DNA of 64,000 nt from Terriglobia bacterium. GTDB lineage: Bacteria; Acidobacteriota; Terriglobia; Terriglobales; Acidobacteriaceae. The notes beneath the pieces were generated by a model, which worked only from the letters and a program-made list of their open reading frames with translations, did no database searches and was not told the DNA's origin. Below are positions 5,056 to 47,173 of this stretch, one piece after another. Made by a program: the position numbers and the translations under genes. The stretch spans positions 62,001 to 126,000 of the forward strand of contig JAVUPY010000051.1 in assembly GCA_032252755.1 (NCBI GenBank). The letters run 5' to 3'. The stretch's first letter is position 1; each line of letters starts with the position of its first letter.

Positions 5056-5099
5056 GCGATGGATCGTGCCCTGGTGCGAGCGCGCCATCGCGCCATCGC
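5056..5099. repeat. Possible remnant of family A repeat
   Basis: The words gcgatggatcgtgcc and gcgccatcgcgccatcgc occur head to head with a short spacer. They match the 8-nt unit of the long hairpins inside the phage-like island, but pairing is partial here. Confidence 0.35.
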
Positions 5100-7997: not shown

Positions 7998-8080
7998 ATC
8001 GAGCACTCGCGCCATCGCACCATCTTCGACAGCGTTTCTCTTCGAAGATGGCCCATTAGCCCGATCCGCAATGGCTCGAT
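7998..8080. repeat. Family A long inverted repeat before the beta-helix gene
   Basis: Left arm atcgagc...gccatcgcaccatc ends in ttcga. Right arm tcgaagatggccc...gcaatggctcgat is close to its reverse complement, with a 10-15 nt loop between. It ends 17 bases before the start codon of the following gene. The arms are less regular than in the four copies between 15.0 and 18.6 kb. Confidence 0.7.
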
Positions 8081-11525: not shown

Positions 11526-11606
11526 CCGTCATCCCGAGCGGAACTGCGGGTCGTTTACGCAGTGGAGTCGAGGGACCTGCATCTCTCGTTTCGTAAAGAT
11601 GCAGCA
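11526..11606. repeat. Family E repeat upstream of the terminase start
   Basis: Contains gtcatcccgagcggaactgc, then gtcgagggacctgcatct and its partner aagatgcag. It shares gtcatcccgagcgga with a segment inside dnaG. It argues that the open frame upstream of 11656 is not real terminase coding sequence. Confidence 0.55.
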
Positions 11607-11655
11607 GGACGGTTCGCCTTCCGGTCGCGCTGCTCGCTGCTGTTTGGGGGCAGCG

Positions 11656-13134
11656 GTGAGTTTGGTGGAGTTGGTTCTGCTGGAAGAGCTCGGGAAGAAC
11701 TTGAACGTTATTCCCGGGCCGGACAAAAACATTCGCGAAATCCTGATGCGTGCGCTGTTGCGGATTCGCGACAAGCAAGGGGGCCTGCAGCCGCTGGTCC
11801 TCAACCGCGCACAGCACGATTACCAGAGGCACTGCGGAAAGAAAAACATCGTTCTAAAGGCCAGGCAGCTTGGGATCACGACTTACGTGGCGGCGCGGTT
11901 CTTTCTGCGGACGATCACGCAACCGGGAACCCTGACGGTGCAGGTGGCGCACGACCAGCGCGCGGCGGAACAGATATTTCGGATTGTTTATCGATTCCTG
12001 GAGAACCTGCCGGAATCGCTACGGAAATCTTTGTACACGTCGCGCGCGAACGTGCGCCAGGTTGTCTTTCCCGAGATCGATTGCGAATATCGCGTGGAGA
12101 CAGCCTCGGACCGGCACGCCGGACGCGGCCTGACAATCCAGAACCTGCATTGCTCCGAGGTGGCCATGTGGCCCGACGGTGCTGCGGCGCTCGCGGCTTT
12201 ACGCGCGGCTGTGCCGCCGGGCGGTGAAATCGTTCTGGAATCGACCCCGAACGGCGCGGCGGGCGCCTTCTATCGGGAATGGCAGAACGCGGGCGAAACC
12301 GGCTACATCCGCCACTTCTTTCCGTGGTGGCTGGATGAATCTTATCGCGTGACCGGCCGTCCTGTAGGAGCACTCTCCGAAGAAGAGCGGATGCTGATCG
12401 AGCAGCACGGCCTGGACGAAGATCAGATCGCCTTCCGTCGCGACGTCAAAGCGAACTTCGGAGCCCGCGCGCGCGAAGAGTTCGCCGAGGACGCGCAGAC
12501 GTGCTTTCGCAGCAGCGGCGAGTGCGTCTTCGAACTGGATACGCTTGAAGAGCGGTTGAAGAACCTCGTGGAGCCGATTGAGCGCCGCGACAATGGCCGT
12601 CTGCGGATCTGGCTACCGTTCGTAGCCGGGCGACGCTTCATCATCGGCGTCGATCCGGCGGGCGGCGGCATCGACGGCGATTTCGCATGTGCCCAGGTTG
12701 TGGATCGCGACACCGGACTGCAGTGTGCCGAGTTACTCGGTCATCTGCGTCCCGAGGAACTGGCGCGCGAGATCGCGAGGCTGGGCCGCGAGTACGGCGA
12801 TGCCCTCGTCGCGGTCGAGCGCAACAACCACGGACACGCGGTTCTCGCCTGCCTGCAGTTGCAGGAGCGGTACGCCAATCTCTTTCACGAGGGCGGCGGC
12901 CCGCGGCGCGAGGCCGGATGGCTGACCACGGCCGCCAATCGTCCGCCGATGCTGGAGAACCTGGCGGCGGTGCTGCGGGCGAATCCGTCGTCGCTGCAGA
13001 GCCCGAGGCTGCTCGAACAATGCCGGACATTCGTCCGGGGAAAAGACGGGCGCGCCGAAGCCGCCGCCGGGAGTCACGACGATGCGGTGATGGCGATGGC
13101 CATCGCGCTCGCGGTTCGGGCGCAACTGGCTTGA
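11656..13134 (+). CDS. Phage terminase large subunit
   Basis: 492 residues from the GTG at 11656 with GGGGG upstream; the frame is open from 11599, but that part is repeat-derived. The ATPase half shows a Q-rich adenine region, a Walker A-like KARQLGITT, a Walker B-like LHCSEVAMWP and coupling motif LESTPNGA. The nuclease half has GVDPAGGGIDGDF, ALVAVERNNHG and SHDDAVMAM, the three acidic clusters of the RNase H-like fold. It should pump and cut concatemeric DNA into proheads through the portal. All expected key residues are present, so it looks active. It is separated from portal by the HipA-like/DUF3037 pair, which is not the usual phage order. Confidence 0.9.
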   Translation: MSLVELVLLEELGKNLNVIPGPDKNIREILMRALLRIRDKQGGLQPLVLNRAQHDYQRHCGKKNIVLKARQLGITTYVAARFFLRTITQPGTLTVQVAHDQRAAEQIFRIVYRFLENLPESLRKSLYTSRANVRQVVFPEIDCEYRVETASDRHAGRGLTIQNLHCSEVAMWPDGAAALAALRAAVPPGGEIVLESTPNGAAGAFYREWQNAGETGYIRHFFPWWLDESYRVTGRPVGALSEEERMLIEQHGLDEDQIAFRRDVKANFGARAREEFAEDAQTCFRSSGECVFELDTLEERLKNLVEPIERRDNGRLRIWLPFVAGRRFIIGVDPAGGGIDGDFACAQVVDRDTGLQCAELLGHLRPEELAREIARLGREYGDALVAVERNNHGHAVLACLQLQERYANLFHEGGGPRREAGWLTTAANRPPMLENLAAVLRANPSSLQSPRLLEQCRTFVRGKDGRAEAAAGSHDDAVMAMAIALAVRAQLA

Positions 13135-13228
13135 GTTCCGATTCGGGAAAATGCCGCTCCAAGATGGGAATTGTGTTCCGTTTTGGAGTTGTGGGAACGA
13201 TAGGATGCTGCTTGGTGCCTGCTCCGTG

Positions 13229-13259
13229 CCCCACATCCGCCGCAGTTGGCAGATGGGGG
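13229..13259. repeat. Family B palindrome between terminase and the HipA-like gene
   Basis: ccccacatccgcc and ggcagatggggg form an imperfect stem around a gcagtt loop. It is nearly identical to the copy at 24113-24142. Confidence 0.65.
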
Positions 13260-13322
13260 TTCGCGCAGTCAGCAGACATGGGTTCAAATGTGGCTTCAAG
13301 GATGTAGGTTTCCGGGGCAACG

Positions 13323-14129
13323 GTGGCCGTCGAAGCGGTTCAACATGTGAAGCGGATGCGCGGTGGTGCGCAGGGTCACCTGATGCGCGCCAGCGATGGC
13401 CACTATTACGTCGTGAAATTCCAGAACAATCCGCAGCACCTGCGGGTTTTGGCGAACGAGTTGCTCGCTACGAAATTGGGCGAACTGCTCGGACTGCCTG
13501 TTCCGCAGGTCGAAGTCGTGAACGTGGACTCCTGGTTGATCGAGCACACTCCGGAGCTCAGGATCGAGTTGGTTCACGGTGTGATCTCGTGTGTTCCCGG
13601 GCTGCAATGCGGGTCACGATATGTTGTTCCCCCGGCGGAGGGAGTTGTCTATGACTATCTTCCAGAGAATCTGCTGGAACGGGTTCGTAACCTGGAGGCT
13701 TTCGCCGGTGCGCTGATACTGGACAAATGGACGTGCAATGCCGATGGAAGACAGGCGGCCTTCTGGAAGAAGTCGCGCGAGCGCAAGTTCACGGTCTCGT
13801 TCATTGACCAGGGGTATTGTTTTAACGCCGGCGAATGGACTTTTCCGGATTCACCCCTGCGCGGCGTTTACGCACGGAACGATGTCTATCGCGGCATAAC
13901 GGGTTGGAATAGTTTCGAGCCATGGCTGAGCCGGTTGCAGGAACTCGACGAACAGAAGTTATGGCGGGTCGCGGAGACAGTTCCACCGGCCTGGTACGGC
14001 GATACGTGCGACATGGAGCGGCTGATCGAGCAGTTGCTGAAGCGGCGAAACCGGGTACCGGAGCTGATACTGAACTTCAGGAACTCGAGCCGCCAGCCGT
14101 TTCCGAACTGGGCGGAGCGGGTAAACTAA
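13323..14129 (+). CDS. HipA-like kinase domain protein (HipA_2 type)
   Basis: 268 residues with a GTG start. The N-terminus RMRGGAQGHLMRASDG and VVKFQNNPQH are hallmark strings of the short HipA-like family. Lys32 in VVKF is the likely ATP-contacting lysine. LILDKWTCNADGRQ (about 132-144) matches the catalytic loop and SFIDQGYCF (Asp162) the metal-binding DFG-like position. HipA toxins phosphorylate GltX or other targets; the substrate of this short family is not known to me. The gene lies directly before a DUF3037 gene, a pairing I know from other genomes. Its position inside a phage head module suggests accessory cargo, perhaps defensive or regulatory. Confidence 0.8.
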   Translation: MAVEAVQHVKRMRGGAQGHLMRASDGHYYVVKFQNNPQHLRVLANELLATKLGELLGLPVPQVEVVNVDSWLIEHTPELRIELVHGVISCVPGLQCGSRYVVPPAEGVVYDYLPENLLERVRNLEAFAGALILDKWTCNADGRQAAFWKKSRERKFTVSFIDQGYCFNAGEWTFPDSPLRGVYARNDVYRGITGWNSFEPWLSRLQELDEQKLWRVAETVPPAWYGDTCDMERLIEQLLKRRNRVPELILNFRNSSRQPFPNWAERVN

Positions 14130-14200
14130 CAAAGAACGATGCAGGGAAGCACCGCCCGGCGAAACGCCAGCGTTGCAGAAATCGAGATGGAGCAGAGGAT

Positions 14201-15016
14201 TTGAGGCCACCACAACGACAATGCGAGTTCTTCCTGGTTCGCTACATGCCGGACGCGGTCAAGGAGGAGTTTGTCAATGTGGGCGTCGCGCTTTACACGG
14301 TCGACACGGCCGGCCCACGATTTTCGGATGTCCTCTTTACGACCAACTGGTCACGTGTGCGGTGCCTCGATCCCGACGTCGAAGTCGAAGCAATCACCGG
14401 GTTGGAGCAGCAACTGCGCGAGGTGCTCTGGGCCCCGGGCAGCAGCGTTGCTGCAACTCTGCGGGAATCGCTCGGCGGAGTGCTGCAGTTGACCGAAGCG
14501 CGCCCGCTGATGACGGAATCACCCGAGGCGGAACTGAAGCTGCTTTCGCAGGCGTATCTAGAGCGGCACCGGCCGGCATCGCGCGATGCTTCCGGACGGC
14601 AGACGATTCTGCACGCCATGCGTCGCGAATTCGAACGCCAGGGAGTCTGGCAATTTTTGCGAACGGGGATTACCGTCGTGCCGTACACGGAAGAAGGCGA
14701 TCCGCTGAAGATTGATTTTGCCTACAACGCGTCGACCTCGGGGCAAGGCCTTGTGCGCATGTTCCAGGCGGTCTCACTGGAGCGCGACATCAACGCCGCC
14801 AAGGTGCTCGCCTTCAGTTGCCCACGAATCGCCTCCGGGCTTCGCGAGAAAGAAAGCTCCGACTTGCAGCTTACGGCCGTCATCGAAGCCGAACTTCCGC
14901 CGACACGCGAAATCGAATTTGGCAAGCGCGTCATGCGCGAGAACGGAGTCGTAATCAGGACCGTTGCCGATATCCCCGCGATCGCGGAGCGAGCGAGAGA
15001 AGAATTAAAGCTGTAA
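14201..15016 (+). CDS. DUF3037 protein paired with the HipA-like kinase
   Basis: About 271 residues. No ATG lies in a good place; a TTG at 14201 with GGAG upstream is the best start, and the first conserved stretch begins QCEFFLVRYMPDAVKEEFVN, the DUF3037 hallmark. The family has no established biochemical role. The gene follows the HipA-like kinase by 71 bases with no terminator between, so they are probably co-transcribed. A toxin-antitoxin or kinase-substrate relation is possible but only inferred from pairing. An alternative is that both are general housekeeping genes stranded here by rearrangement. Confidence 0.75.
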   Translation: MRPPQRQCEFFLVRYMPDAVKEEFVNVGVALYTVDTAGPRFSDVLFTTNWSRVRCLDPDVEVEAITGLEQQLREVLWAPGSSVAATLRESLGGVLQLTEARPLMTESPEAELKLLSQAYLERHRPASRDASGRQTILHAMRREFERQGVWQFLRTGITVVPYTEEGDPLKIDFAYNASTSGQGLVRMFQAVSLERDINAAKVLAFSCPRIASGLREKESSDLQLTAVIEAELPPTREIEFGKRVMRENGVVIRTVADIPAIAERAREELKL

Positions 15017-15096
15017 TCGTGCCATCTGGCGATCGGGCCAACGTGCGATTGTGTAGAGCATCGAGGGCCTGATCGCGATCTGTAAGTTCTAACGTA

Positions 15097-15175
15097 ATCG
15101 AGCCGTCGAGTCATCGGGTCATCGTGCCATCGGAAAAACAAATGGCGCGATGGCCCGATCGCACGATGGCTCGAT
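15097..15175. repeat. Family A hairpin before portal gene
   Basis: Two 34-nt arms (15097-15130 and 15142-15175) separated by an 11-nt A-rich loop. The right arm's reverse complement matches the left at most positions. Each arm is four 8-nt units of the form ATCGNGCC. It ends 8 bases before the AGGAG of the portal gene. The 15017-15075 stretch carries further scattered copies of the same unit. Confidence 0.85.
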
Positions 15176-15192
15176 CTGTTTACAGGAGACGC

Positions 15193-16395
15193 ATGGATAT
15201 TCGCGAAAAGCTGGGTGAAGTTCTTCGCCGCGCGCGCCGGCAGCGCGATGGGGGAGAGAAGCGCAAGACCGCGGCCCTGCCGCAAACGCTAATGGGCAAC
15301 GCCACGCGCAATGAGCCGATGCCGAAGCCGACTCCGGTGAACCTTCGCCGTTTCGCGGAGACGCCGGTGGCGCGCAAGGCCATCAACACCATCAAGGATC
15401 GCGTCGCCGGAATGAGTTGGCGCATCCAGCCGCGCCACGGCCGCAAGCTCGAGGAAATCGAAGACGGTGCGGCGCGTATCAGTATCCTGACCGAGATCTT
15501 CGAGCAGCCCAACCCGGACGATTCGTTTCGGTCGATGGCCGAGCAGGTTCTCGAAGACATTATTGTCGGCGGCTTCGGCGCTATCGAACTGCGCAAGACC
15601 GGCGATACTGAGCATCCGCTGGAACTCTGGCCGGTCGACGGCGCGACCATCAAGTTGCGCGCCGACTGGAACGGCCAGCCGGAATCGCCGCGCTACGTGC
15701 AGGTCACGGGTAAGTTCGGTGCTGCCGGCCAGGTCGTGCTCGCCGACGAGGAGTTGTCGTACATTCGACTGAACCCACGCACGCACACTCCATTCGGCCT
15801 TGGTCGGCTTGAAGTTGCCTTCGAGACCATCGCGAATTTCCTGAGCGCCCATCGCCACGCCGCGAAGCTTGCGAACAACTCGGTGGCGCAGTACGCGCTG
15901 TGGCTTGACGAACTCGACGCCGTGCAACACGAGCGCCTCATTCGCTGGTGGCAGGACGAAGTCGAAGGCACCGGCAAGGTGCCGATTATGAGTTCGCCGC
16001 ACAAGCCCGAAGTCGTGCGCTTCGGCGGCGGGACGGATTCCGACCTTCGCCTGCAATGGCAGGAGTTCCTGCTGCGCATCGTCGCCGATGCCTTCGATCT
16101 TCCACCTATGCTCTTGGGTCTGGAAGGGGACGTGAATCGCTCGACGGCCGGCGAACTGACCGATCACGCTTTCCATACCGCCATTGTGCCCACGGCAAAG
16201 CTCTTTGCCGAGCATCTCACGCGTGATGCCATTGCCAAGCGGCTCGGATGGAACGACCTCGAATTCGTCTTCGCCGACGTCGACGCCCCCAACGAACTCG
16301 CCAAGTCGGAAGTGCAGGAGCGGTTGCTGCGCTGCGGCGTCCTCACCGTCAACGAAGTGCGGCAGATGAGAGGGTTGGCGCCACTGGAAAACTAA
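15193..16395 (+). CDS. Phage portal protein (HK97-type)
   Basis: 400 residues from the ATG at 15193, which has ACAGGAG at good spacing; the in-frame upstream stretch is read-through of a repeat. Features fit the HK97-type portal: FAETPVARKAINTIKDRVAG, then GFGAIELRKTG, LNPRTHTPFGLGRLEVA, and late FDLPPMLLGLEGDVNRSTAGE. The portal is the dodecameric DNA gate at one capsid vertex and docks the terminase. The length is normal and no disruption is seen. The gene starts the compact head-assembly run that continues to 24.5 kb. Confidence 0.88.
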   Translation: MDIREKLGEVLRRARRQRDGGEKRKTAALPQTLMGNATRNEPMPKPTPVNLRRFAETPVARKAINTIKDRVAGMSWRIQPRHGRKLEEIEDGAARISILTEIFEQPNPDDSFRSMAEQVLEDIIVGGFGAIELRKTGDTEHPLELWPVDGATIKLRADWNGQPESPRYVQVTGKFGAAGQVVLADEELSYIRLNPRTHTPFGLGRLEVAFETIANFLSAHRHAAKLANNSVAQYALWLDELDAVQHERLIRWWQDEVEGTGKVPIMSSPHKPEVVRFGGGTDSDLRLQWQEFLLRIVADAFDLPPMLLGLEGDVNRSTAGELTDHAFHTAIVPTAKLFAEHLTRDAIAKRLGWNDLEFVFADVDAPNELAKSEVQERLLRCGVLTVNEVRQMRGLAPLEN

Positions 16396-16400
16396 AGCAG

Positions 16401-16482
16401 ATCGTGCCATCGCGCCATCGGGTCATCCTGCCATCGCAATTCCTTTCAATGGCACGGTGGCCCGTTCGCTTGATGGCTCGAT
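16401..16482. repeat. Family A hairpin before the prohead protease gene
   Basis: 34-nt arms at 16401-16434 and 16449-16482 with a 14-nt loop. Same phase and length as the copy before portal. It ends 5 bases before AAGGAG. Confidence 0.85.
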
Positions 16483-16498
16483 CACTCAAGGAGAACTC

Positions 16499-17014
16499 AT
16501 GCAGGTGGAAATGGAGGCGATGGCGATCGAGATGCCGCCGGTCGCTCGGCATCCCAACCGGATGCCGTTCGAAGGCGTGCTCACCATTGCGAACGAAGCC
16601 TCGGACAAACCGCCCAGCGGTGCGCGCGGTCATCGCGTCTTGCTGCCGGCGGCGTCGGTCGAGGCCGCTCTGCCCTCGTTGCTGGGCATGGCAGTTGATT
16701 ACGCGCCGAGTCTCGATCGTCACGACGCGCGCCGCAAGGTCGGCATCATCACCTCGGCAGAACTGGAACCGCACGGCGACAGCATCCGCAAGCTTGCGGT
16801 CGAGGGCTATCTCTTTGCCCAGGACTTTCCGGAGGTGGTGCGGGAGATGTCGGCCGGCGAGGGCTCGCTCGGAATGTCGTACGAGATTGCCGATGCCGTC
16901 GTGGTAGACGTGAACGCGCCGGTGTGGGTGGTGAACGAATTCACCTTCACCGGCGCGGCGGTGTTGCGGCGCGACAAAGCGGCGTATCGAAAAACTTCGA
17001 TTCGCCTGGTGTAA
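16499..17014 (+). CDS. Putative prohead protease
   Basis: 171 residues from the ATG at 16499, which has AAGGAG 7 bases upstream. Its place between portal and capsid, its size, and a probable His (SLDRHDARRKVG) and Ser (GSLGMSYEIADA) fit a prohead maturation protease, which trims scaffold and capsid before packaging. The hydrophobic core VEGYLFAQDFPEVVREM is typical of this fold. No family motif is strong enough to fix the catalytic triad by eye, so the role depends partly on gene order. Confidence 0.6.
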   Translation: MQVEMEAMAIEMPPVARHPNRMPFEGVLTIANEASDKPPSGARGHRVLLPAASVEAALPSLLGMAVDYAPSLDRHDARRKVGIITSAELEPHGDSIRKLAVEGYLFAQDFPEVVREMSAGEGSLGMSYEIADAVVVDVNAPVWVVNEFTFTGAAVLRRDKAAYRKTSIRLV

Positions 17015-17052
17015 GCGGGTACCTGGTACCCGGTGCCGAATTGGAGAAAACA

Positions 17053-17385
17053 ATGGAAGAAAACAACACAGAATCCTCACGCCTGGCCGCTGCGGCCGAA
17101 GCGCTCGAGCGGACGCTGGCGCGCATGGAAGCGCACTTCGTTTCGCTGGAACAGAAGATCGAGCACATCGTAGCCATGGTGGAAGAGCGTGCGGCGGTGA
17201 AGGCCGAGGCCGAACCTGAAGCACGTAAGACGGTTTCCGCCCGCACCAGCGCGCTACTTGCGAAGTTTGGCGCCGGCGATGGTCCGCTGGCCGCAACCTC
17301 TGCCGACGAAATGCTTCGCGCTCTGAGCGTCGAACAGCGCATCGCGGTCAAGGCCGAGCTGGCAAGAGCGGGAATCCTGCAGTAG
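17053..17385 (+). CDS. Coiled-coil protein, likely scaffold-like
   Basis: 110 residues from the ATG at 17053 (GGAG upstream). Residues 8-60 form a long heptad-rich helix (LAAAAEALERTLARMEAHFV, then LEQKIEHIVAMVEERAAV). An Ala/Glu linker follows, then a small helical C-terminus ending AGILQ. Placed between protease and capsid, as scaffolding or decoration proteins usually are. The sequence itself shows only the coiled coil. Confidence 0.6.
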   Translation: MEENNTESSRLAAAAEALERTLARMEAHFVSLEQKIEHIVAMVEERAAVKAEAEPEARKTVSARTSALLAKFGAGDGPLAATSADEMLRALSVEQRIAVKAELARAGILQ

Positions 17386-17412
17386 CCCCTGAGCAAACCG
17401 AAGGTTCGTTAT

Positions 17413-17487
17413 ATCGAGCCATCGTGCCATTGCGTCATCTTGCCATTGAACAAATGGCTCGATGGCTCGATCGCCCGACGGCTCGAT
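17413..17487. repeat. Family A hairpin before the capsid gene
   Basis: 34-nt arms at 17413-17446 and 17454-17487 with a 7-nt loop. Here both arms carry atcgagcc and atggctcg units. It ends 25 bases before the ribosome site of the capsid gene. Confidence 0.85.
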
Positions 17488-17522
17488 CTTCTTCGCTCCC
17501 GAGCGGAGCGCGAAAGGACATT

Positions 17523-18494
17523 ATGAGGACCCAATTCATCGATCTGAACGCCGCCGCCGACTTCATCGGACCCGGCGCAGTGGAAATCAACCGTTACCAG
17601 ACCGAGATCACCGACATCGTTCGCCGTCGCGGAATCTTCGGGCAGCGCATCAAGCAGATGCCCGCGACCGGGCATCCGTCGCGTTTCTTCGAGCAGACCG
17701 CGATCCCGTCGCCTTCCGCCGCGAGCGCCTTCGTTGATCCGCGCAACATCGTCGCGACCGTCAGTTCGCCGACACGTGTCGAGCGCTCCGTCCCGCTCAA
17801 GGCCCTGGTATCGCAGATCAACTACAACCTCTTCGACCTGGAAGTGGGCGCGCAGCAGAGCCAGTTCGCCTACCTGCAGGCGAAGGATCTCGCCGACGCC
17901 GTGGACGGCCTCATGCGCACGCATGACGTCGCGCTGTGGAACGGCAATGACACCTCGCTGAGCGCGCCGACCACCACGCAGTACTACGGCGCCTCCGCGC
18001 AGATCGATGCCGGCGGCAACATCGCCACCGTCGATACTGACGACAGCATCGTCGACGGCATCAAGTCGGCAATCGCCGCTATGGTCGCGAACTCGAATTA
18101 CGAAGTTCGTCCCACCGCGATCTACGCCAACCCGGTGTTGCTTGACCTGATCGATCGCGAGATGAAGACGGAATTCAACGTCGTCCTCTCGCCGACTGAA
18201 GTGGCCGCGGGCCTGCGCGTGAAGACGCTCTCGACCCAGGCGGGCGAGTTGCCGCTCATCCCCGAGTTCGCGCTCGGCTACACCGGAACTCCCGGCAGCG
18301 GCACTGCCATCCTGCCGGCCTGCATCGTGAGCGAGGACATGGTCGAGTACCACTGGCTCACAGATCCCAATCCGCGCGTCTTCCAACTCGGCATGACCGG
18401 CTCGCTGGCAGCGCAGATGGTAGTCGCGAAGTTCGGCGCCGTCGTCGTAAAAGGCGCCGGCTACGCGCACTGCAAGGTCAACGTGCACCGGTAA
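17523..18494 (+). CDS. Major capsid protein
   Basis: 323 residues from the ATG at 17523, with AAAGGA upstream. The first 50 residues are extended N-arm-like. Then VPLKALVSQINYNLFDLEVG, ADAVDGLMRTHDVALWNG, PTAIYANPVLLDLIDREM and a late MVEYHWLTDPNPRVFQLGM follow the layout of HK97-fold capsid proteins: a helix-rich P domain, then A-domain strands. It forms the shell. The gene sits exactly where a capsid gene is expected, after protease and scaffold, and has its own upstream hairpin. Confidence 0.8.
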   Translation: MRTQFIDLNAAADFIGPGAVEINRYQTEITDIVRRRGIFGQRIKQMPATGHPSRFFEQTAIPSPSAASAFVDPRNIVATVSSPTRVERSVPLKALVSQINYNLFDLEVGAQQSQFAYLQAKDLADAVDGLMRTHDVALWNGNDTSLSAPTTTQYYGASAQIDAGGNIATVDTDDSIVDGIKSAIAAMVANSNYEVRPTAIYANPVLLDLIDREMKTEFNVVLSPTEVAAGLRVKTLSTQAGELPLIPEFALGYTGTPGSGTAILPACIVSEDMVEYHWLTDPNPRVFQLGMTGSLAAQMVVAKFGAVVVKGAGYAHCKVNVHR

Positions 18495-18500
18495 AACGTA

Positions 18501-18578
18501 ATCGAGCCATCGTGCCAACGGGTCATCGTGCCATCGGAGATCAAATGGCTCGATGGCCCTTTCCTCGATGGCTCGAGT
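18501..18578. repeat. Family A hairpin before the head-tail connector gene
   Basis: 34-nt left arm at 18501-18534 and a right arm from 18545 to about 18578, loop about 10 nt. It ends 3 bases before TCAGGAGG of the next gene. Confidence 0.85.
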
Positions 18579-18592
18579 TTTCAGGAGGAAAC

Positions 18593-19216
18593 ATGCAGTA
18601 TCTCGCGGATTCGGAGTACGAAACTTACGGGCTCGAGGCGGCGACACCAGCGGCCCTCATAGCCTCGGCATCTTCGCTCATCGACAGCCTCTGCCGACGC
18701 CCCGCACTCGGGGTGACGCAATATACGGAACGCATTCGCATTGCCCCGCAGACCGGCCGCGCACGCCTCAGCTACCTGCCGCTCTGCGCGGTCGACGGTG
18801 CCTCCTCGCCGCTGGCGAAGGTACGCGTTCGCTACGGCCCATCCGACTTCGGCTTCAGCAGCGACCTCGGCATGGCCGTGATGCAGGTCTTCGGACTCGC
18901 CGGTACCTGGGTCGACGTCGACATCGCGCAGTGTGAGTTCGTCGCGGCGACGGGTGAACTCATTATTCCCGCACAGGTTCTCGGCGTGCCCTACATTGAG
19001 GCCGAGGTCACCTACACAGCCGGCTTCGCGACGATCCCTGATGGCGTGAAGTTCGCCTGCGCGCAACTCGTCCGCAACGCCCAGGCGTCGCCAGCGCTCA
19101 ATGTGCGCCGCTCCGGCCTGGACAAGATGCAGTTGGAATACTTCGGCGCGAGCCTCGCCGACGATGACGTGAAGCGCCTGCTGGCCCCATTCGTCGCCGT
19201 GAGGTGCGGAGCATGA
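18593..19216 (+). CDS. Head-tail connector protein (gp6-like)
   Basis: 207 residues from the ATG at 18593, with CAGGAGG upstream. The N-terminus LEAATPAALIASASSLIDSL and the later ATIPDGVKFACAQLVRNAQA fit connector proteins that ring the portal and mount the neck. The middle is beta-rich. Its stop overlaps the next start (ATGA at 19213-19216). Position after the capsid gene supports the call. Confidence 0.68.
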   Translation: MQYLADSEYETYGLEAATPAALIASASSLIDSLCRRPALGVTQYTERIRIAPQTGRARLSYLPLCAVDGASSPLAKVRVRYGPSDFGFSSDLGMAVMQVFGLAGTWVDVDIAQCEFVAATGELIIPAQVLGVPYIEAEVTYTAGFATIPDGVKFACAQLVRNAQASPALNVRRSGLDKMQLEYFGASLADDDVKRLLAPFVAVRCGA

Positions 19217-19617
19217 GCGTCGATTGGAATGATTCCTCGCGCGCCCAGGCACCGCGCCGCGCCGCCGCCGCTATGCTGCGCGCTCTCGGCGGCTCGGAGA
19301 TCGTCCTGCGGGTCTCTGCCCCGATGGGAACGGTAGACACGCGCGGCCTCGGATTGCAGCAATACGACATCAGCGAAATCCGGCTCTCGCCCGCGATAGT
19401 TCGCGAGGTCAAGGGCGCCCCAACTCCGCGGTGGGAGGCGCTCCTTCCGGCCGCCGAAGTCGAAGCGAAGCTCGGCACTGGCCGCGAAGCGATCGCCGCA
19501 GCTCTGCACCAGAATGCCGAGATTGTCTGGAACGCCAAGACACTCCGCATTCGCGACGTCTCGACTGAACTCTTTGCCAATTGTGAGTACCTCTATCGCA
19601 TCACCCTGGGAGAGTGA
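19213..19617 (+). CDS. Putative head-closure / neck protein
   Basis: 134 residues, starting at the ATG overlapping the previous stop. Mixed alpha/beta, with PTPRWEALLPAAEVEAKLG and NAEIVWNAKTLRIRDVSTEL. Not recognised by motif. Its size, position and coupling to the connector gene fit a head-closure or neck protein. Confidence 0.55.
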   Translation: MSVDWNDSSRAQAPRRAAAAMLRALGGSEIVLRVSAPMGTVDTRGLGLQQYDISEIRLSPAIVREVKGAPTPRWEALLPAAEVEAKLGTGREAIAAALHQNAEIVWNAKTLRIRDVSTELFANCEYLYRITLGE

Positions 19618-19618
19618 C

Positions 19619-20098
19619 ATGCAGGCAGTGAAAGACAGTTTCTACATGGCGTTGCGCCAGCGCCTCGCCCAGTCTTATCCCACGCGATCCATGGGCGACA
19701 CGAATCAGCCCGCGCTGATCGTCTGTGAAAACGTATCCCAATCTTGGGTTCCCGCGAACGATGTCTTCTACCTTCGCTGGACCTCAGACGAGAAACTCTC
19801 CCCGGACGCATCCGCTGCCGGATGGCGCGCCCAGCAGTGCGAAATTACCTATGGCACGGCGGGAAGCGAGAGCGCGAACGGCGAAGACCGCGGCCGCTCG
19901 CTCGCCGAACTCGATGCCGAGCTTCACTCGATTCTAGAGCCGCGCCAAACCGCGCTCCTCGATTACACGCAAGAGCCACCCGCAATGCTGAGCGGCACGG
20001 TGCTGTGGACGCACGCAACTCTCGATGACGCAAAAGATACCGGCGGAGTCATTCAACGCACCGCGCGCCTAAGCGTTCTCTGGCAGGAGGCACAATGA
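19619..20098 (+). CDS. Putative tail-completion protein
   Basis: 159 residues from the ATG at 19619, one base after the previous stop, with GGAGAG upstream. SFYMALRQRLAQSYPTRSMG at the start and ARLSVLWQEAQ at the end. The pattern of a small alpha/beta protein following the neck gene fits tail-completion or tail-terminator proteins. No firm family. Its stop overlaps the next start by ATGA. Confidence 0.5.
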   Translation: MQAVKDSFYMALRQRLAQSYPTRSMGDTNQPALIVCENVSQSWVPANDVFYLRWTSDEKLSPDASAAGWRAQQCEITYGTAGSESANGEDRGRSLAELDAELHSILEPRQTALLDYTQEPPAMLSGTVLWTHATLDDAKDTGGVIQRTARLSVLWQEAQ

Positions 20099-21057
20099 GC
20101 ATCGATCTCGTCACCCCCAACCAACCGGTCTCGACCGCCGTGCACGCCTTCGTTGCGCCGGTCCAGCGCGACTCGAGCCAGCCGACCGTATTCGACGCCA
20201 GCCAGGCCGCGTCGTTCGATCTCACGAATCCTCCCTCGCCATGGATCGGCCTCGGTCCGGTGGAAGGCTTTCAGCGAACCGCCGTCGACGAATCTACGTC
20301 CGTTCAGTCTGGCACGGATGCGACCGTGGTCGCGCAGTTCCGCAAGAAACTCGAGGCTCATGTCTCGTTCTCATTCCGTCGCTGGGGAAAGCTGCAACTC
20401 GCCATGGGGACCGGCGGCACGCACTGGAACGTACTCGCCCCTCGAAACGACGGAGAACCGTCGCCGGCCGGTGGCGACGCGATCACGGCAATGCCTGTCC
20501 TGAACGGCTCGACCGCAACCGCGCTGCAAATCGATTCGCAATTCGCGGCGCAACTCGCCCCCGGAGACCTCGTTGCCGTCGACCTCGACTACCTCCAGCA
20601 GACCGGATACCTCGGACTTGGATACCCCGGAGCGTACGTCGTCAGTTCCGGTACTGTTTCGCTGCAAGCCGACTTCGTCCGTCGCGTGACCTTCAACGTC
20701 GGCAAGGTCGCCGCCATCGCAGGTGGAACCGTGACGCTGGAGAATCCTCTGCCGGCAGGCGATCCCCCCAATAGCGCCAGGCTGCAAAAAGTGCTCGGCT
20801 TCACAGATCGCGAGGGCGGAGCATTTCGCCAGGAGTGGTCCGCACTGTTCTTCGAAGAGACGGTCAGCGGCGGGCGTGTCTGCTACTACTACCCGCGACT
20901 GCAATCGCTTCCCCAGGCCGCAGAGAAGAAGCACATCATCCTCGACGACTACCGGGCGATGCTGCTCGAAGCGCATCTCCTCGCCCTCCCCGCAACCGAT
21001 CCGCAGGACGGCGTCAGCGCCCTCTGGTACCGAACCTACATCCCGCCGAAAGGATAA
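20095..21057 (+). CDS. Putative tail protein (possibly tail tube)
   Basis: 320 residues. Mostly beta strands with Gly/Ser turns (GYPGAYVVSSGTVSLQADFV, then VTLENPLPAGDPPNSARLQK) and a late GFTDREGGAFRQEWSALFFE, which resembles tail-tube or major-tail proteins. Start overlaps the previous stop. No tape-measure gene follows, so if it is a tail tube the tail would be unusual or absent. It may instead be a minor structural protein. Confidence 0.55.
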   Translation: MSIDLVTPNQPVSTAVHAFVAPVQRDSSQPTVFDASQAASFDLTNPPSPWIGLGPVEGFQRTAVDESTSVQSGTDATVVAQFRKKLEAHVSFSFRRWGKLQLAMGTGGTHWNVLAPRNDGEPSPAGGDAITAMPVLNGSTATALQIDSQFAAQLAPGDLVAVDLDYLQQTGYLGLGYPGAYVVSSGTVSLQADFVRRVTFNVGKVAAIAGGTVTLENPLPAGDPPNSARLQKVLGFTDREGGAFRQEWSALFFEETVSGGRVCYYYPRLQSLPQAAEKKHIILDDYRAMLLEAHLLALPATDPQDGVSALWYRTYIPPKG

Positions 21058-21124
21058 CCGGCAAGGCCACAAAGGTTCACGAAGGCCTTCGTGTCCTTAG
21101 TAGTTTGTTCTTCTCAGGAGACCC

Positions 21125-23434
21125 ATGAAGCTCTACATCGACAATCTCGACGTGGCGGGTCCGCGCGACTACACGCAGTTTCTCAGCGGCGGTCGCGGTC
21201 CCGTAATTCGCCGCAAGCTGAACCACCCCGACGAACTCGAGGCAACGCTGCTAAGCGAATCGCAGTTCATGCTGATGCCGATCGCCGGCGCACGCGTTCA
21301 ACTGGTTCGCGATGACGGCAGCAAGCTTTTCACCGGCTATCTCACCGAGCCTCTCCGGGGCGTCAGCCTCGGCGATAGCGAACGTGGTCCCTGGTATTCG
21401 TACGTGCTCAAGGCGACCGGCGATGAAGCGCTGCTCGATCATCGTCCCCTGCCCGCGCGCCCGAACTACGCCCGCGTGACTGCCGGCCAACTGCTCGAAG
21501 ATCTCGCTGAAGAACTTTGTCCCGGCGCTTTCGAAACCAGTGGCCTAGGCGACGGCGGCACCGTCGTCGCGGTTTCCTGCGGCGGAGCGCGCCGCTGGAG
21601 CGACATCGCACAACAGCTGGCAAACCAAACCCGCTGCGCCTGTCGCGTCCACGACCACGCCATTACCTTGCGCCCCGTCGAAAGCCTTGTGCACGTGCTC
21701 AACGAGAACGATCCCGCGCTCGATAACCGGAAGCTGCAGGCAGAGCAATCGGGCACCGTGGTCAACAAGGCCACTGTCCTCTCCGGCAACGAACCCGACT
21801 CTTACGTTAATGACCAGTTCGTCGGCGATGGCTACATGCTCGTCTTCTCGCTGTCGAACTATCCCTACCTCCGTACCCAGCAGACGGTTCTCGAAGAAGA
21901 ATTCACCACCTCTCTTGCGCCCTATCTCTGGGACGTCAAGGACACTGCAGGCGCATTGCAGGTGCAGCACGGCCAACTCAGCACTGCTGGCGGAACGGGA
22001 GACGCGGAGGCTTGCTCCGTCACCTTGCAGCAGGCCATCGAACTCGGCGGTGCGTGGCAGTTCCAGCACGGAGAACTTGCCGTTGACAGCGGCAGTGGCT
22101 GGATCGGTGGCCTCTTCGACCACACCATCGATGCCGCCCACTGCATCGCCGGCTTTCGCGTCACCGACTCCGGCGGCCAACGCAACATTCAGCCCCTGAT
22201 CAACGGCACCGCGGTCGGAACAGTGGTCACGGCTCGCGCCGGTTGCCGCTACGCGCTCAGCACGCGACTGTACGGCAGCGACCACTTCCGCCTTCACTCG
22301 TCTTTCTGTTCACCGGCGGGAATTCTTGGCGGGCAGGATACCGCGACGAGCATGCGCGTGGTCCTTGAGTGTCGCGAGATAGATCCTGCGAACCCGGCGA
22401 CCTTCGCGCAACCGGCGACAGCGCTGTTCGACGACCTGATCACGCGAGTGCCGTCGACGTGCTTGTACGTCCCCGTCGCCAGCGAGAACCTGCACGCCTC
22501 GCTCAATTTCCTCCGCATCCGCCGAATGCCTGAAGTCCTCGTCCGCAGCGCGCTCCAGGGACAACCCTTCCGCACGCGACTCGTAGGCGCCTTGTCCGAG
22601 GGTGCCGAGTGCGGCATCTCTACCAGCGGCGATCTCTATTTCTACTCGGTGAATCCGCCGGCACCGAACGAATCCATCGTGGTCACCTACCGCACCGCCG
22701 CGCGCGCCGCCGGCAGCGCGAGTGACGCCGAGAGCATCGCCAACCTTGTTCATGTCGGAGACGACGGTGTTCGCGCCAGCGTGGCCAGCCTGGTCGCACC
22801 TGTAGCACGGAGTTCAGAAGACTGCGTGCTCGCCGCGCAAGCGTGGCTCTCTGCGTCCAAGGACGGCGGATGGTCCGGCGAATATTCCTGCTGGCGAGAT
22901 TCGCTGCCTCTCGGAACCGAGATCTTCCCTGGCGATGCCGTCAGCGTCGTCGCTCCGTCGCGTGACGCCCGGTTCTCTGCCATCATCCGCGACGTGCAAA
23001 TCGATGTGGAAGACCTGATCGGCGAACGCGAGTGGATCAGGTTCCATTTCGCCGACGATGGCGCCGATGCCTTCGCCATGCAACTGTCTCGCGAGCAGGA
23101 CGGCTACGAGTGGCCGCGCATCGTCGTCGACGCGACTGCACCGCCGGCCCTCGATCCCCTGAGCAACGCGAAGTACACCGCGATCACCTCGACAACGCTC
23201 ATGGTCGACGCCGGCATCGATCCCCCCGCCGGCGGCGGAATCGAGGTGCGCCGCAGCGACTCCGGGTGGAGTCCCGATATCGACCGCAACCTCGCCGGAC
23301 GTTTCACCAGTCGAACTTTCACCCTGCCGCGACTGGCGCGGAACCAGCAGTACTGCTTCCGGCAGTACGACGGTTCGAACCCGCCACGCTATTCGCGACA
23401 CACAACCATCCTCTACGTGGATCTGCCGTTATGA
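21125..23434 (+). CDS. Large tail hub / baseplate-like protein
   Basis: 769 residues with AGGAG before the ATG. The first 90 residues (YIDNLDVAGPRDYTQFLSGG, later KLFTGYLTEPL) fit the beta-barrel start of tail hub (gp27/Dit-like) proteins. The middle has beta-sandwich stretches with HGQLS/HGELA repeats near 300-345, and the end has a fibronectin-type strand pattern (EVRRSDSGWSPDIDRNLAGR, then QQYCFRQYDGSNPPRYSRHT). It is expected at the tail tip to hold fibres or a lytic domain. The stop overlaps the next start. Confidence 0.6.
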   Translation: MKLYIDNLDVAGPRDYTQFLSGGRGPVIRRKLNHPDELEATLLSESQFMLMPIAGARVQLVRDDGSKLFTGYLTEPLRGVSLGDSERGPWYSYVLKATGDEALLDHRPLPARPNYARVTAGQLLEDLAEELCPGAFETSGLGDGGTVVAVSCGGARRWSDIAQQLANQTRCACRVHDHAITLRPVESLVHVLNENDPALDNRKLQAEQSGTVVNKATVLSGNEPDSYVNDQFVGDGYMLVFSLSNYPYLRTQQTVLEEEFTTSLAPYLWDVKDTAGALQVQHGQLSTAGGTGDAEACSVTLQQAIELGGAWQFQHGELAVDSGSGWIGGLFDHTIDAAHCIAGFRVTDSGGQRNIQPLINGTAVGTVVTARAGCRYALSTRLYGSDHFRLHSSFCSPAGILGGQDTATSMRVVLECREIDPANPATFAQPATALFDDLITRVPSTCLYVPVASENLHASLNFLRIRRMPEVLVRSALQGQPFRTRLVGALSEGAECGISTSGDLYFYSVNPPAPNESIVVTYRTAARAAGSASDAESIANLVHVGDDGVRASVASLVAPVARSSEDCVLAAQAWLSASKDGGWSGEYSCWRDSLPLGTEIFPGDAVSVVAPSRDARFSAIIRDVQIDVEDLIGEREWIRFHFADDGADAFAMQLSREQDGYEWPRIVVDATAPPALDPLSNAKYTAITSTTLMVDAGIDPPAGGGIEVRRSDSGWSPDIDRNLAGRFTSRTFTLPRLARNQQYCFRQYDGSNPPRYSRHTTILYVDLPL

Positions 23435-23655
23435 ATGATTTCGAACAGCGTGTTTTGACTGACCTTGCGGAATTAAAGGCCCACATGCGTTATCTCGTGG
23501 GCACGGGCAGCGAAGGCAAAATGCAGGAACTCGATTCCCGCGTTCAACGGAATGAAGCGCAATTGCACCGGATGGGCGGCATCGGTGCCGCTTTCGGCGT
23601 CCTGCTCACGCTCATCCATCTCGCCTTCGACTATTTGCGGGTACATAAGCTATGA
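23431..23655 (+). CDS. XhlA-like coiled-coil membrane protein
   Basis: 74 residues. A heptad N-terminal half (EQRVLTDLAELKAHMRYL, then DSRVQRNEAQLHRM) is followed by one hydrophobic helix (GGIGAAFGVLLTLIHLAF) and a short basic tail. This is the layout of XhlA/hemolysin-like phage proteins that work with holin and endolysin. ATGA overlaps link it to both neighbours. Confidence 0.6.
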   Translation: MNDFEQRVLTDLAELKAHMRYLVGTGSEGKMQELDSRVQRNEAQLHRMGGIGAAFGVLLTLIHLAFDYLRVHKL

Positions 23656-24098
23656 CCAGAGAAGAATTCTTGCAGCAAGCGACGGCAGCTGCCCAGGCGA
23701 GTTCCAAAACCAGCGCACTGCCCGCCGGCATCACCGTCGCGCAAGCCGCACTCGAAAGCGCATTTGGCAACTCGGCGCTTTCACGAAAAGCGAACAACTA
23801 TTTCGGCATCAAGGCCCACGGCCGCCACGCCGTTCTCGAAATGCCGACAACCGAAGTGATCAACGGAGACGTGCAGAAGGTGACCGCCCGTTTCGCCGCC
23901 TATAAAGACATGGCCGAGTGCTTCACATGCCGCGACCAGCTGATCGCCAACGGCGCGGTCTACGCCGAGGCCCGCGCGAACGCACACGATCCCGAACTGT
24001 TCACGCACGCCCTCGCGAAGCATTGGGCCACAGACCCCAGCTACGCAGAGAAAATCCTGAAGATCTATTACGAAAACAACTTAAGCAGCTTGATGTAG
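23652..24098 (+). CDS. Glucosaminidase-type endolysin (FlgJ/LytD-like)
   Basis: 148 residues. GITVAQAALESAFGNSALSR contains the probable catalytic Glu of the mannosyl-glycoprotein endo-beta-N-acetylglucosaminidase family, followed by KANNYFGIKAHG. The C-terminal ELFTHALAKHWATDPSYAEK is also conserved. It would cut murein glycan strands. There is no signal peptide, so it likely needs the neighbouring membrane protein for access to the wall. Coupled to the XhlA-like gene by ATGA. Confidence 0.82.
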   Translation: MTREEFLQQATAAAQASSKTSALPAGITVAQAALESAFGNSALSRKANNYFGIKAHGRHAVLEMPTTEVINGDVQKVTARFAAYKDMAECFTCRDQLIANGAVYAEARANAHDPELFTHALAKHWATDPSYAEKILKIYYENNLSSLM

Positions 24099-24112
24099 AC
24101 CACATTCGGTGC

Positions 24113-24142
24113 CCCACATCTGCCGCAGTTGGCAGATGTGGG
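24113..24142. repeat. Family B palindrome after the endolysin gene
   Basis: cccacatctgcc and ggcagatgtggg form a perfect 12-bp stem around gcagtt. This is the best preserved copy. Confidence 0.8.
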
Positions 24143-24730: not shown

Positions 24731-24775
24731 TTTGGTCTTCAGTTTTGCCCTTTTCCCTCTACCCTTTTGCCCTTA
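24731..24775. repeat. Family C related words at the E2 3' end
   Basis: tttggtcttcagttttgccc followed by repeated ttttgccc words. The same phrase recurs before the cytochrome c gene at 26561-26647. No good stem is seen here; a gcaaagcaaagagc string 30 bases earlier is a weak partner. Confidence 0.35.
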
Positions 24776-26497
24776 AACAATCGGCTCGTTCCAGTTCTCC
24801 AGGTAGTTCTTAACCACGCTCATGAACTGGTCTGCGACCGCGCCATCAATGATGCGGTGATCGTACCCGATCGACAGGTGCATCATCGAACGGATCGCGA
24901 TCGAGTCGTTGCCGTCCTTGTCAGTTACGACCATTGGTTTCTTCGTGATTGCGCCGACGCCCATGATCGCCAGCTGCGGTTGCGAGATGATCGGCATCCC
25001 GAACTTTGCGCCGAATATTCCGGGATTGGTGATCGTGAAAGTACCGCCCTGCACGTCTTCCGGCTTCAGGCGCTTGCTTCGGGCCCGCTCGCCGAGATCG
25101 TTGATTGCGCGCTGCACGCCCGCAAAGCTCAACTCGTCCGCGTGCTTCACGACAGGAACGATCAGTCCCCAGTCGAGTGCCACGGCGATGCCGATATTGA
25201 TGTCGCGCTTGTAATGAATGTTCTCGCCTTCCACCGAAGCGTTGACGATGGGCCACAGGCGCAACGCATGAGCGACTGCCCGCGTAAAGAACGGCGTGAA
25301 GGTCAGCTTCAGCCCCGTCGCCTGCTGGAAGCGGTCCTTCATCTTCTCGCGCAGTTTGACGATACGCGTCATGTCGATCTCGAAGACGCCGTGAACGTGA
25401 GCGCTAGTGCGCTTCGACATCACCATGTGCTCGGCGATCTTCTTGCGCATCACGCTCATCGGCTCGACCGTCCCCGGAACCCCCGCGAACTTGTTCGCCG
25501 GAGTCGCCGGAAGAGGCGTAGCCGGTACCTCCGCGGCTGCGGCCGCAGGCGCAGCGTACGTCGGAGCGGATGGTGCCTGCGGTGCTGGAGCACTCGGCGG
25601 AGCGCCCGCCGGATACTTAGCGATGAACGTCTCGATGTCTTCCTTCGTGATCCGTCCGCCGGAGCCGGTTCCGGTCACCTGGCGAAGATCGACGTTGTGT
25701 TCTTGCGCCAGCCTGCGCACCAGCGGTGAAGACCGAAGCCTCTCTTCTTCGCCAACGGCAGCGCGAGGAGCAGCGGGAGCGGCTGCGACAGGTGCAGATG
25801 CTGGAGGTGCCGTCGCTTGTGGCGCGGCCGTGACTGGGGCCGCAGCTTGCGCGGCTTGTGCGGCACCGCCGCCGATCACGCCGACCACGGTGTTGACCTG
25901 CACGGTGGTTCCGGGTTGTACGCGGATCTCGGTCAGCGTGCCGGCCGCGGGAGCCGGGATCTCCGCGTCCACTTTGTCAGTGGAGATTTCGAATAGCGGC
26001 TCGTCGCGATTGACGTGATCGCCGACCTTCTTCATCCAGCGCGTCAGCGTGCCCTCGAAGATCGACTCGCCCATCTGCGGCATCGTCACTTCGGTGCGCG
26101 GCCCCGAGGGCGCTTGCGGCGCCGCCGCTGCGGGAGCGGGAGTCGGAGCAGGGCTTGCGACCGGAGGAGCAGGCGCAGGCGGAGGTGGCGCCGCCTGTGG
26201 AGTAGATGCCACTGGCTCCGGGGCCGGTGCTGAGGGTTGGGGCGCCGCACTCGCCGCGCCGCTCTCGTCGATGACGCCGACGACTGTGTTTACCTGCACG
26301 GTCGCGCCTGGCTGCACCTTGATGTCGCGCAGCACGCCGCTGGCCGGCGCAGGCACTTCCGCATCAACCTTGTCGGTTGAAATTTCGAACAGCGGCTCGT
26401 CGCGATTAACGTGGTCGCCCGGCTTCTTCAGCCACTTGGTAACAGTGCCCTCAAAGATGGATTCGCCCATCTGCGGCATAACGACGTCAGTTGGCAT
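24773..26497 (-). CDS. 2-oxoacid dehydrogenase E2 component (dihydrolipoamide acyltransferase)
   Basis: 574 residues. Two lipoyl domains (about 1-80 and 135-215) each carry the STDKVDAE lipoylation motif (Lys43 in the first). Ala/Pro-rich swinging linkers separate them. A peripheral-subunit binding domain follows near 265-300 (SSPLVRRLAQEHNVDLRQVT). The catalytic domain ends with IGYDHRIIDGAVADQF, His about 547. It transfers the acyl group from lipoate to CoA. E1 beta and E1 alpha lie upstream on the same strand, but DUF2007 and a cytochrome c intervene. The substrate (pyruvate, branched-chain or 2-oxoglutarate) is not decided. The E3 subunit is not in the window. Confidence 0.9.
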   Translation of the reverse strand: MPTDVVMPQMGESIFEGTVTKWLKKPGDHVNRDEPLFEISTDKVDAEVPAPASGVLRDIKVQPGATVQVNTVVGVIDESGAASAAPQPSAPAPEPVASTPQAAPPPPAPAPPVASPAPTPAPAAAAPQAPSGPRTEVTMPQMGESIFEGTLTRWMKKVGDHVNRDEPLFEISTDKVDAEIPAPAAGTLTEIRVQPGTTVQVNTVVGVIGGGAAQAAQAAAPVTAAPQATAPPASAPVAAAPAAPRAAVGEEERLRSSPLVRRLAQEHNVDLRQVTGTGSGGRITKEDIETFIAKYPAGAPPSAPAPQAPSAPTYAAPAAAAAEVPATPLPATPANKFAGVPGTVEPMSVMRKKIAEHMVMSKRTSAHVHGVFEIDMTRIVKLREKMKDRFQQATGLKLTFTPFFTRAVAHALRLWPIVNASVEGENIHYKRDINIGIAVALDWGLIVPVVKHADELSFAGVQRAINDLGERARSKRLKPEDVQGGTFTITNPGIFGAKFGMPIISQPQLAIMGVGAITKKPMVVTDKDGNDSIAIRSMMHLSIGYDHRIIDGAVADQFMSVVKNYLENWNEPIV

Positions 26498-26560
26498 TTA
26501 TGACCTTCCGAGGGGGTGCTTTATAACGAAGAACATCCCACAGCAAACTTTTAATTATAA

Positions 26561-26647
26561 AACGGCAAAACGGCAAAGGTAAAAACGCCAGAAGCCAAGC
26601 CGCTTTGGTCTCAGTTTTGCCGTTTTGCCCTTAGCCGTTTTGCCGTT
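26561..26647. repeat. Family C inverted repeat between E2 and cytochrome c genes
   Basis: aacggcaaaacggcaaagg on the left pairs with ccgttttgccgtt on the right, with a second copy of the word ttttgccgttttgccc between. It lies just after the cytochrome c stop on the minus strand. Confidence 0.7.
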
Positions 26648-26654
26648 GTCTTTA

Positions 26655-47091: not shown

Positions 47092-47173
47092 GAGGGCATA
47101 AGGCAGAAGGCAAAGGGCGGAACGGAGAAGGCTTTTCGTTTTGCCCTCTGCCCTCTACCTTTTGCCTTCTCCC
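47092..47173. repeat. Family C inverted repeat after the YbaK-like gene
   Basis: gaagggcaaag-like words on the left (ggcagaaggcaaagggcgg) face ccctctgccctctacc and ttttgccttctccct on the right. It also lies at the dnaB 3' end and could act as a bidirectional terminator. Confidence 0.65.

Follow-up and report, generated by a model that had tools for sequence, protein, structure and literature searches.

In Xanthomonas, the heptamer GGGAATC forms arrays of mostly four units, with 186 and 183 arrays counted and 70 and 75 cases of convergent pairs, and the available text of PMC4692102 describes these arrays as lying near stop codons and as variable between relatives. For the repetitive extragenic palindromic (REP) hairpins of E. 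coli that lie within 15 nucleotides (nt) of a stop codon, ribosome stalling has been reported, and REPs are also reported as obstacles to exoribonucleases (excerpt of PMC12306157, citing Liang 2015). In phage T7, the sole terminator for the phage polymerase stands directly behind the capsid gene 10, the genes 11 and 12 being expressed via read-through (excerpt of PMC5592923), while in the cluster O mycobacteriophages a 17-bp palindrome recurs, of which 14 of the 34 copies in phage Corndog are found in short intergenic regions (excerpt of PMC4351075). The present analysis concerns four hairpins of an 8-nt unit that stand between successive head genes of a phage-derived cluster in a Terriglobia bacterium of the Acidobacteriota (assembly GCA_032252755.1, contig JAVUPY010000051.1, positions 62,001 to 126,000 of the forward strand). 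This whole stretch of 64,000 nt is referred to as the window, and all coordinates are positions within it.

All four hairpins belong, as local copies, to an intergenic repeat that is spread over the genome, where it occurs as single half-sites or as inverted pairs and tends to stand right behind stop codons. The reading to which we give a fairly good chance is that the position behind the capsid gene is selected for a stem-loop, that the repeat fills this role in the present genome, that the other three copies are mainly passengers and that the cluster is inherited vertically.

A dispersed octamer repeat behind stop codons

The four stem-loops of the preliminary description were recovered at their positions with the folding energies and z-scores of Table 1, and none of 200 shuffles folds equally well. 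The 8-nt unit was found as described, whereas the arms, given there as 34 nt with four units, measure 36 nt, or 4.5 units. A pattern of two and a half units, with up to three mismatches allowed, matches the window 25 times against 0.21 expected. Shine-Dalgarno-like sequences follow the ends of the four hairpins at about 8, 6, 25 and 4 nt, in agreement with the 3-25 bases first reported, and the ribosome sites fall outside the stems. A known RNA family was tried and rejected, since Rfam returned just two matches to microRNA precursors (hairpins 1 and 3), far below the gathering scores.

A weight matrix made from the copies defines a half-site of 36 nt, ATCGTGCCATCGGGCGATCGTGCCATCGTGCCATTG, with the unit ATCGNGCC. 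The sequence-only model finds 64 half-sites (E ≤ 0.01) at about 50 places of the 5.39-Mb genome, nine of these half-sites in this cluster, and the count is a lower bound, since scoring covered 150 of the 2685 candidates from the first look; the pattern search of the genome gave 95 matches and the reversed control pattern none. Genomic context was taken from 38 stretches, i.e. the window and 37 others picked for holding the element or adjoining the window, which omit the places first found by the sequence model but not by the pattern search, and gene ends beyond the annotated ones came from our own simple gene caller. The 45 places in these stretches comprise 30 single half-sites and 15 inverted pairs (hairpin 18501-18578, with an indel in its 3' arm, is counted as a single), and 39 of them are intergenic while six lie inside genes. 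An element specific to phages was rejected on the 64 half-sites spread over the genome, which give no support either to the special tie to head genes that had been proposed; a palindromic element in many copies, which was the other suggestion, is supported as a broad class.

Placement follows the stop codons. Among the intergenic copies with a neighbouring stop, 22 of 32 lie within 12 nt of it, where 11.9 are expected from sliding the copies within the same gaps (P<5e-5). The co-directional copies are nearer to the upstream stop than to the downstream start in 20 of 24 cases, at median distances of 5.5 nt and 59.5 nt, respectively, and 11 of the 24 single intergenic half-sites have a stop within 12 nt, the 5' end facing it in ten of these 11. 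The copies are thus better described as standing behind stops than ahead of ribosome sites, contrary to the tie to ribosome sites first drawn. The looser copy that had been noticed before the beta-helix gene does begin at a stop but is weak.

The local cluster, four places in 3.56 kb, has a chance probability of about 6e-5 after correction (for 47 genome places; a count of 50 changes little). The 5' arms of the window are 86% alike mutually and 75% alike to the other copies (P 0.02), one 3' arm of the window with an indel having been left out of the identity counts, and C16 and T23 are common to all four 5' arms; in the three pairs whose arms could be aligned free of indels, C16 of the 5' arm stands opposite G16 of the 3' arm (same numbering), unpaired. 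Such a local subtype indicates that the four copies probably arose by local copying.

The variation between hairpins that still pair had been taken to suggest selection on RNA structure. When all 5' and 3' arms of 16 hairpins were folded in all combinations, with hairpin 18501-18578 added by hand, the arms gave a mean of -35.9 kcal/mol with their own partners versus -38.5 kcal/mol with permuted ones (P 0.98), and the four of the window -48.0 versus -48.9 kcal/mol (P 0.83); both arms were found by score, a possible bias, and the outcome is a lack of support for pairing rather than its disproof. Compensatory covariation was rejected, as own arms pair no better than foreign arms. Pairing persists since the two arms of a hairpin derive from repeats that are complementary, and the sequences give no apparent sign of selection on arm pairs. 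The observations which the preliminary description had named as refuting its idea were made in part: no covariation was found and the element is scattered over the genome, though with a significant local cluster.

Half-site matches at E ≤ 0.001 were found in six of 61 genomes (the present one and 60 relatives), 54 in the own genome and 13, 7, 4, 1 and 1 in the others. Of the same 61 genomes, 13 contain dispersed copies of another unit, the 7-nt GTTGGTC, which reaches 68 matches in a single genome and has none in this one. A pattern scan of named genomes gave 107 stretches across many phyla, with the capsid gene in one of the seven that were followed, and that of viral contigs gave four stretches, one being the nearest relative of the cluster. 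In the viral contigs L233 (about position 5533) and L235 (about 3060) the octamer hairpin starts inside a TAA stop codon (TAATCG), which closes open frames of 148 and 174 codons, and neither contig matches any of the cluster proteins with which it was compared.

The repeat has tandem units within the range of 7-9 nt, single and convergent inverted arrays that are mainly intergenic, and proximity to stops, and it is a new member of the Xanthomonas-type short-unit repeats, minus the G-tracts; judged from the consensus alone, no quadruplex-type G-tract is present in each unit. Further short-unit hairpins occur in the window at 26498-26654 and 47092-47172, with units of about CGGCAAAA and AGAAGGC, which points to one architecture common to several unit families in this genome.

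Stem-loops behind the capsid gene in related genomes

Relatives were compared in two sets, the first of 40 genomes (34 genera; the top of the list and complete genomes) and the second of 40 from the rest, which together take in 80 of the 87 relatives whose genomes match the capsid. Folding covered the 100 nt that follow the stop codon, in gaps of at least 60 nt, and was scored as z against shuffles. In set 1, the post-capsid gaps have a median z of -3.8, and z<-3 was reached in 25 of 37, whereas the 'other' co-directional gaps reached it in 9 of 61, with P 9e-13 for the excess over 189 pooled co-directional gaps; counted by genus, it was reached in 21 of 32. No significant excess was found after the portal (1/23), DUF3037 (4/27) and terminase (2/27) genes, and, paired within genomes, capsid beats portal with P 1.6e-5. 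The excess behind the capsid gene was seen again in set 2 (18 of 40, P 2.6e-7; portal 0/17), and in the combined sets 43 of 77 post-capsid gaps stand against one of 40 post-portal gaps.

Stems of -18 kcal/mol or lower were present in 36/40 capsid-adaptor, 27/40 pre-capsid, 15/32 DUF3037-portal and 10/37 post-portal gaps, the median gap length being 118 nt after the capsid gene and 111 nt for the portal and DUF3037 gaps. A T-rich tail follows 17 of the 34 strong capsid stems of set 1 (strong meaning -15 kcal/mol or lower), compared with 9 of 40 at the ends of convergent genes (P 0.016) and 8 of 51 at other co-directional ends, and it follows 14 of the 39 of set 2. By blastn in set 1, the capsid gaps are similar in 15 of 780 pairs, among 15 genomes, and that of the window resembles none of the 40, so that the structure is shared mostly without sequence. 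The nearest relative, a 6.1-kb contig from a viral collection (L236) with a portal 88% identical, carries an octamer hairpin in the post-portal gap only, the other three of the four junctions being without the repeat; there, the DUF3037-portal and capsid-adaptor gaps hold terminator-like stems and another gap a hairpin of 7-nt units, and the pre-capsid gap folds weakly.

A stem-loop behind the capsid gene could serve as a leaky terminator and/or a 3' stabiliser of the mRNA, and either would yield much capsid and less connector. In this genome, the octamer hairpin 18501-18578 would have taken the place of the post-capsid stem-loop, and its probable function, between the capsid and connector genes, is that of a leaky terminator or a stabiliser of the mRNA; it combines a very stable stem with a four-T run. 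The copies at 15097, 16401 and 17413 stand at junctions where no reproducible stem-loop excess was found in relatives; they are probably passengers in the main and may affect ribosome release or coupling. Tuning of head stoichiometry or protection of mRNA, as put forward at first for all four, fits the post-capsid junction and finds no support at the other three.

Several observations weigh against selection for a stem-loop behind the capsid gene and its fulfilment by the repeat. The two sets share several genera, and neither was drawn at random. The DUF3037 gaps of set 2 reach z<-3 in 9 of 30 (P 0.10), and the pre-capsid gap showed an excess in set 1 (P 5e-5) that was absent in set 2 (5/38, P 0.11) and was withdrawn because of this failure to replicate. 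Stems of -15 kcal/mol or lower are common elsewhere, with 12/17 portal and 25/30 DUF3037 gaps in set 2, and the capsid claim consequently rests on the z-scores. The T-rich tail is missing at half of the strong capsid stems of set 1 and at 25 of 39 of set 2. Among the hairpins of the window, a four-T run follows 18501-18578 only, and a consensus terminator scan called none of the four on the + strand, that one included in spite of its stem and T-run, while a stem inside hairpin 1 was called on the - strand. The capsid assignment itself is affected as well, since a weak SU10_MCP match was obtained for 3 of 15 capsid members and none for the window's own protein, whose predicted structure is unusable (pLDDT 33).

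The chief competitor, which we regard as unlikely while still giving it appreciable weight, is that all the hairpins are neutral intergenic repeats devoid of function, and that a long, tolerant gap behind the capsid gene retains or attracts hairpins of any kind. It accounts for the spread over the genome, for single half-sites that are not palindromes, for the different hairpins of the nearest relative at the same junctions, for the pairing between own partners that is not kept and for the other short-unit hairpins of the window. It does not lead one to expect that the portal and DUF3037 gaps, of similar median length, lack a significant excess of stable folds in set 1, that capsid beats portal within genomes, or that T-rich tails are commoner behind the capsid gene than at convergent gene ends. 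A dedicated RNA family that tunes the translation of each head gene by occluding its ribosome site and is kept by selection on pairing would explain why four successive head-gene junctions are occupied, with ends 4-25 nt before Shine-Dalgarno-like sequences, and why local clustering exceeds chance; it is nevertheless very improbable in view of the missing own-partner advantage, the 64 half-sites of which just nine are here, the anchoring to stops instead of starts, the three of four junctions without the element in the nearest relative, and ribosome sites that lie outside the stems.

Least credible of all is a REP element or miniature inverted-repeat transposable element mobilised by a REP-associated tyrosine transposase (RAYT, a Y1 transposase). 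The palindromic pairs, their intergenic location near stops and the six Y1_Tnp genes of the genome are in its favour. Around the six Y1_Tnp loci, however, no half-site was found over about 1.5 kb on each side (the best score being 12.4 for a threshold of 20), the flanks bear no conserved GTAG or CGTC tag, and the single arms are not themselves palindromes; this origin was rejected for want of the tag and of half-sites near the Y1_Tnp genes. Selection for a stem-loop behind the capsid gene, with the repeat as its present occupant, is the reading kept below.

The phage-derived cluster and its inheritance

The cluster at 11599-24142 looks, from its genes and their distribution, like a gene transfer agent that is vertically inherited in one Terriglobia family. 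Of 150 family genomes, 88 have the capsid gene, with one match each, and a phylum-wide sample of 396 genomes gave 35 with it, every one from the same Acidobacteriota (Terriglobia) family. Gene order is kept in 40 related loci as far as the stretches or contigs reach, except for two rearranged ones. In L295 and L296, two genomes of one genus, the cluster is arranged differently over the 16 kb that were read, with a terminase match to the right and repressor- and sigma-like genes upstream, and no portal or HipA_2 match within that distance. The gene of the acyltransferase (E2) lies downstream in the stretches of 23 of the 40 relatives; 33 of the 40 stretches continue beyond the last compared cluster gene for over 1.5 kb.

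Protein distances of terminase, portal and capsid correlate with those of rpoB over 21 genomes (Mantel r 0.81, reached by 0 of 5000 permutations), after 7 of the 28 genomes with rpoB were dropped for having no complete terminase large subunit (TerL) or portal in the stretch. The rate dN is well below dS in the computed pairs of capsid, portal, adaptor, HipA_2 and the 171-aa protein, TerL having been excluded because one pair was out of frame. The sequence-based features by which gene transfer agents are recognised in the available text of PMC9662315 were found as far as checked: TerL, portal and adaptor are structural proteins of caudoviricete derivation, and co-divergence with the host is seen in the rpoB correlation and in the confinement of all phylum-sample matches to one family. 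The one capsid match per genome and the E2 neighbour of the 23 relatives may reflect full endogenisation. No integrase was found among the window proteins scanned.

A bolder version of this reading, which is possible and at present rather doubtful, holds that an undescribed gene transfer agent is passed on vertically in the family and requires a stem-loop behind its capsid gene, structure and position being kept while the sequence is replaced over and over, in each host genome separately, by recruiting those short-unit hairpins that happen to spread there. Acidobacterial prophages were reported by Eichorst 2018 (PMC5900883) and, in the available text of that paper, are not treated as a gene transfer agent; no description of an acidobacterial one was found in the literature covered, outside of which most subscription papers and preprints lie.

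Table 1. Features of the window, ordered by position (+ and - denote the strand)
Feature	Position	Strand	Remarks
Single half-site	5063..5098	+	score 37; pattern match with 1 mismatch; absent from the 64 model-found half-sites
Degenerate looser copy	7998..8070	+	half-site score 12; z -1.7; begins exactly after stop codon 7995-7997
Terminase large subunit	11599..13134	+	phrog_2, E 3e-29
HipA_2 kinase-like gene	13323..14129	+	PF20613; tblastn match in 32/40 relatives
DUF3037 gene	14246..15016	+	PF11236; start from own gene caller; match in 32/40 relatives
Half-site over the stop codon of the DUF3037 gene	15016..15051	+	score 45; among the 64 model-found
Hairpin 1, before portal	15097..15175	+	-58 kcal/mol, z -8.9
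Portal protein	15193..16395	+	PF04860, E 1.2e-44
Hairpin 2, 5 nt past portal stop	16401..16482	+	-47 kcal/mol, z -7.3; in nearest relative L236, this junction alone bears an octamer hairpin too
Conserved 171-aa protein	16499..17014	+	no family match; tblastn match in 40/40 relatives
Conserved small protein before capsid (gpX here)	17053..17385	+	match in 40/40 relatives
Hairpin 3, 27 nt past stop of the gene preceding capsid	17413..17487	+	RNAfold -42 kcal/mol, z -6.2
Major capsid protein	17523..18494	+	gene order and weak SU10_MCP match in relatives
Hairpin 4, 6 nt past capsid stop	18501..18578	+	-46 kcal/mol, z -6.3; four-T run at its end; relatives often with strong stem-loop here
Head-tail adaptor/connector	18593..19216	+	phrog_442, E 1.7e-15
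Endolysin/glucosaminidase, near cluster end	23652..24098	+	PF01832
Intrinsic-terminator-like hairpin behind endolysin gene	24113..24142	+	terminator scan
Host 2-oxoacid dehydrogenase acyltransferase (E2), downstream neighbour	24773..26497	-	PF00198

The search of PHROGs with 15 capsids gave two weak 'major head protein' matches (E 0.05), and that of solved structures with the capsid gave none. The gene 16499..17014, labelled a protease in the preliminary description, is conserved, but nothing found in family searches bears out the label, and against solved structures its protein has weak lysozyme matches alone (E 0.43 or worse). Neither the capsid nor the 171-aa protein has a tblastn match in 50,697 phage records, of which 20 match the portal at below 60% identity (21-25% in the best rows). 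Between terminase and portal (13323-15016), the HipA_2 and DUF3037 genes form a conserved pair that is unusual in a phage-like cluster, be it as passenger or as regulator. Apart from the cluster, a degenerate tandem repeat of 12, 24 and 36 nt occupies 4506-4733 within the open reading frame 4290-4742, where its unit would encode mainly lysine and alanine.

Comparison with known systems

What appeared to be a set of regulators of head genes has thus resolved cleanly into a dispersed repeat, with the general caution that different sequences which still pair are not evidence of covariation when the arms descend from complementary repeats. The analysis also exposes a cluster resembling a gene transfer agent that appears fixed in a family of soil bacteria and, behind its capsid gene, a candidate control point at which the structure is seemingly kept and the sequence swapped.

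In comparison with the gene transfer agents of the available text of PMC9662315, the cluster is alike in being phage-derived, borne by the host in one copy and co-diverging with it, and differs in including the HipA_2-DUF3037 pair. The repeat shares with the short-unit repeats of Xanthomonas and Nostoc, as described in the available text of PMC4692102, units of 7-8 nt, about four per array, the occurrence as singles or inverted pairs, the location close to or overlapping stops and the variability; however, it is not G-rich, has an 8-nt unit and is present also in a phage-derived cluster. E. coli REP elements are likewise palindromes outside genes, and some of them stand no more than 15 nt from a stop (excerpt of PMC12306157), whereas the repeat described here has arms of tandem units and common single arms, and neither a GTAG tag nor a RAYT link was found for it. 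The palindromes of cluster O mycobacteriophages similarly place one palindrome at many sites of a phage genome, but they are short, nearly invariant, without units and described, in the excerpt of PMC4351075, in phage genomes, while the repeat extends over a bacterial genome. The closest functional parallel would be the gene 10 terminator of T7, a leaky terminator between the capsid and the following read-through genes (excerpt of PMC5592923), from which the present case differs in that a terminator is proposed from stem-loops and that their sequences mostly differ between genomes.

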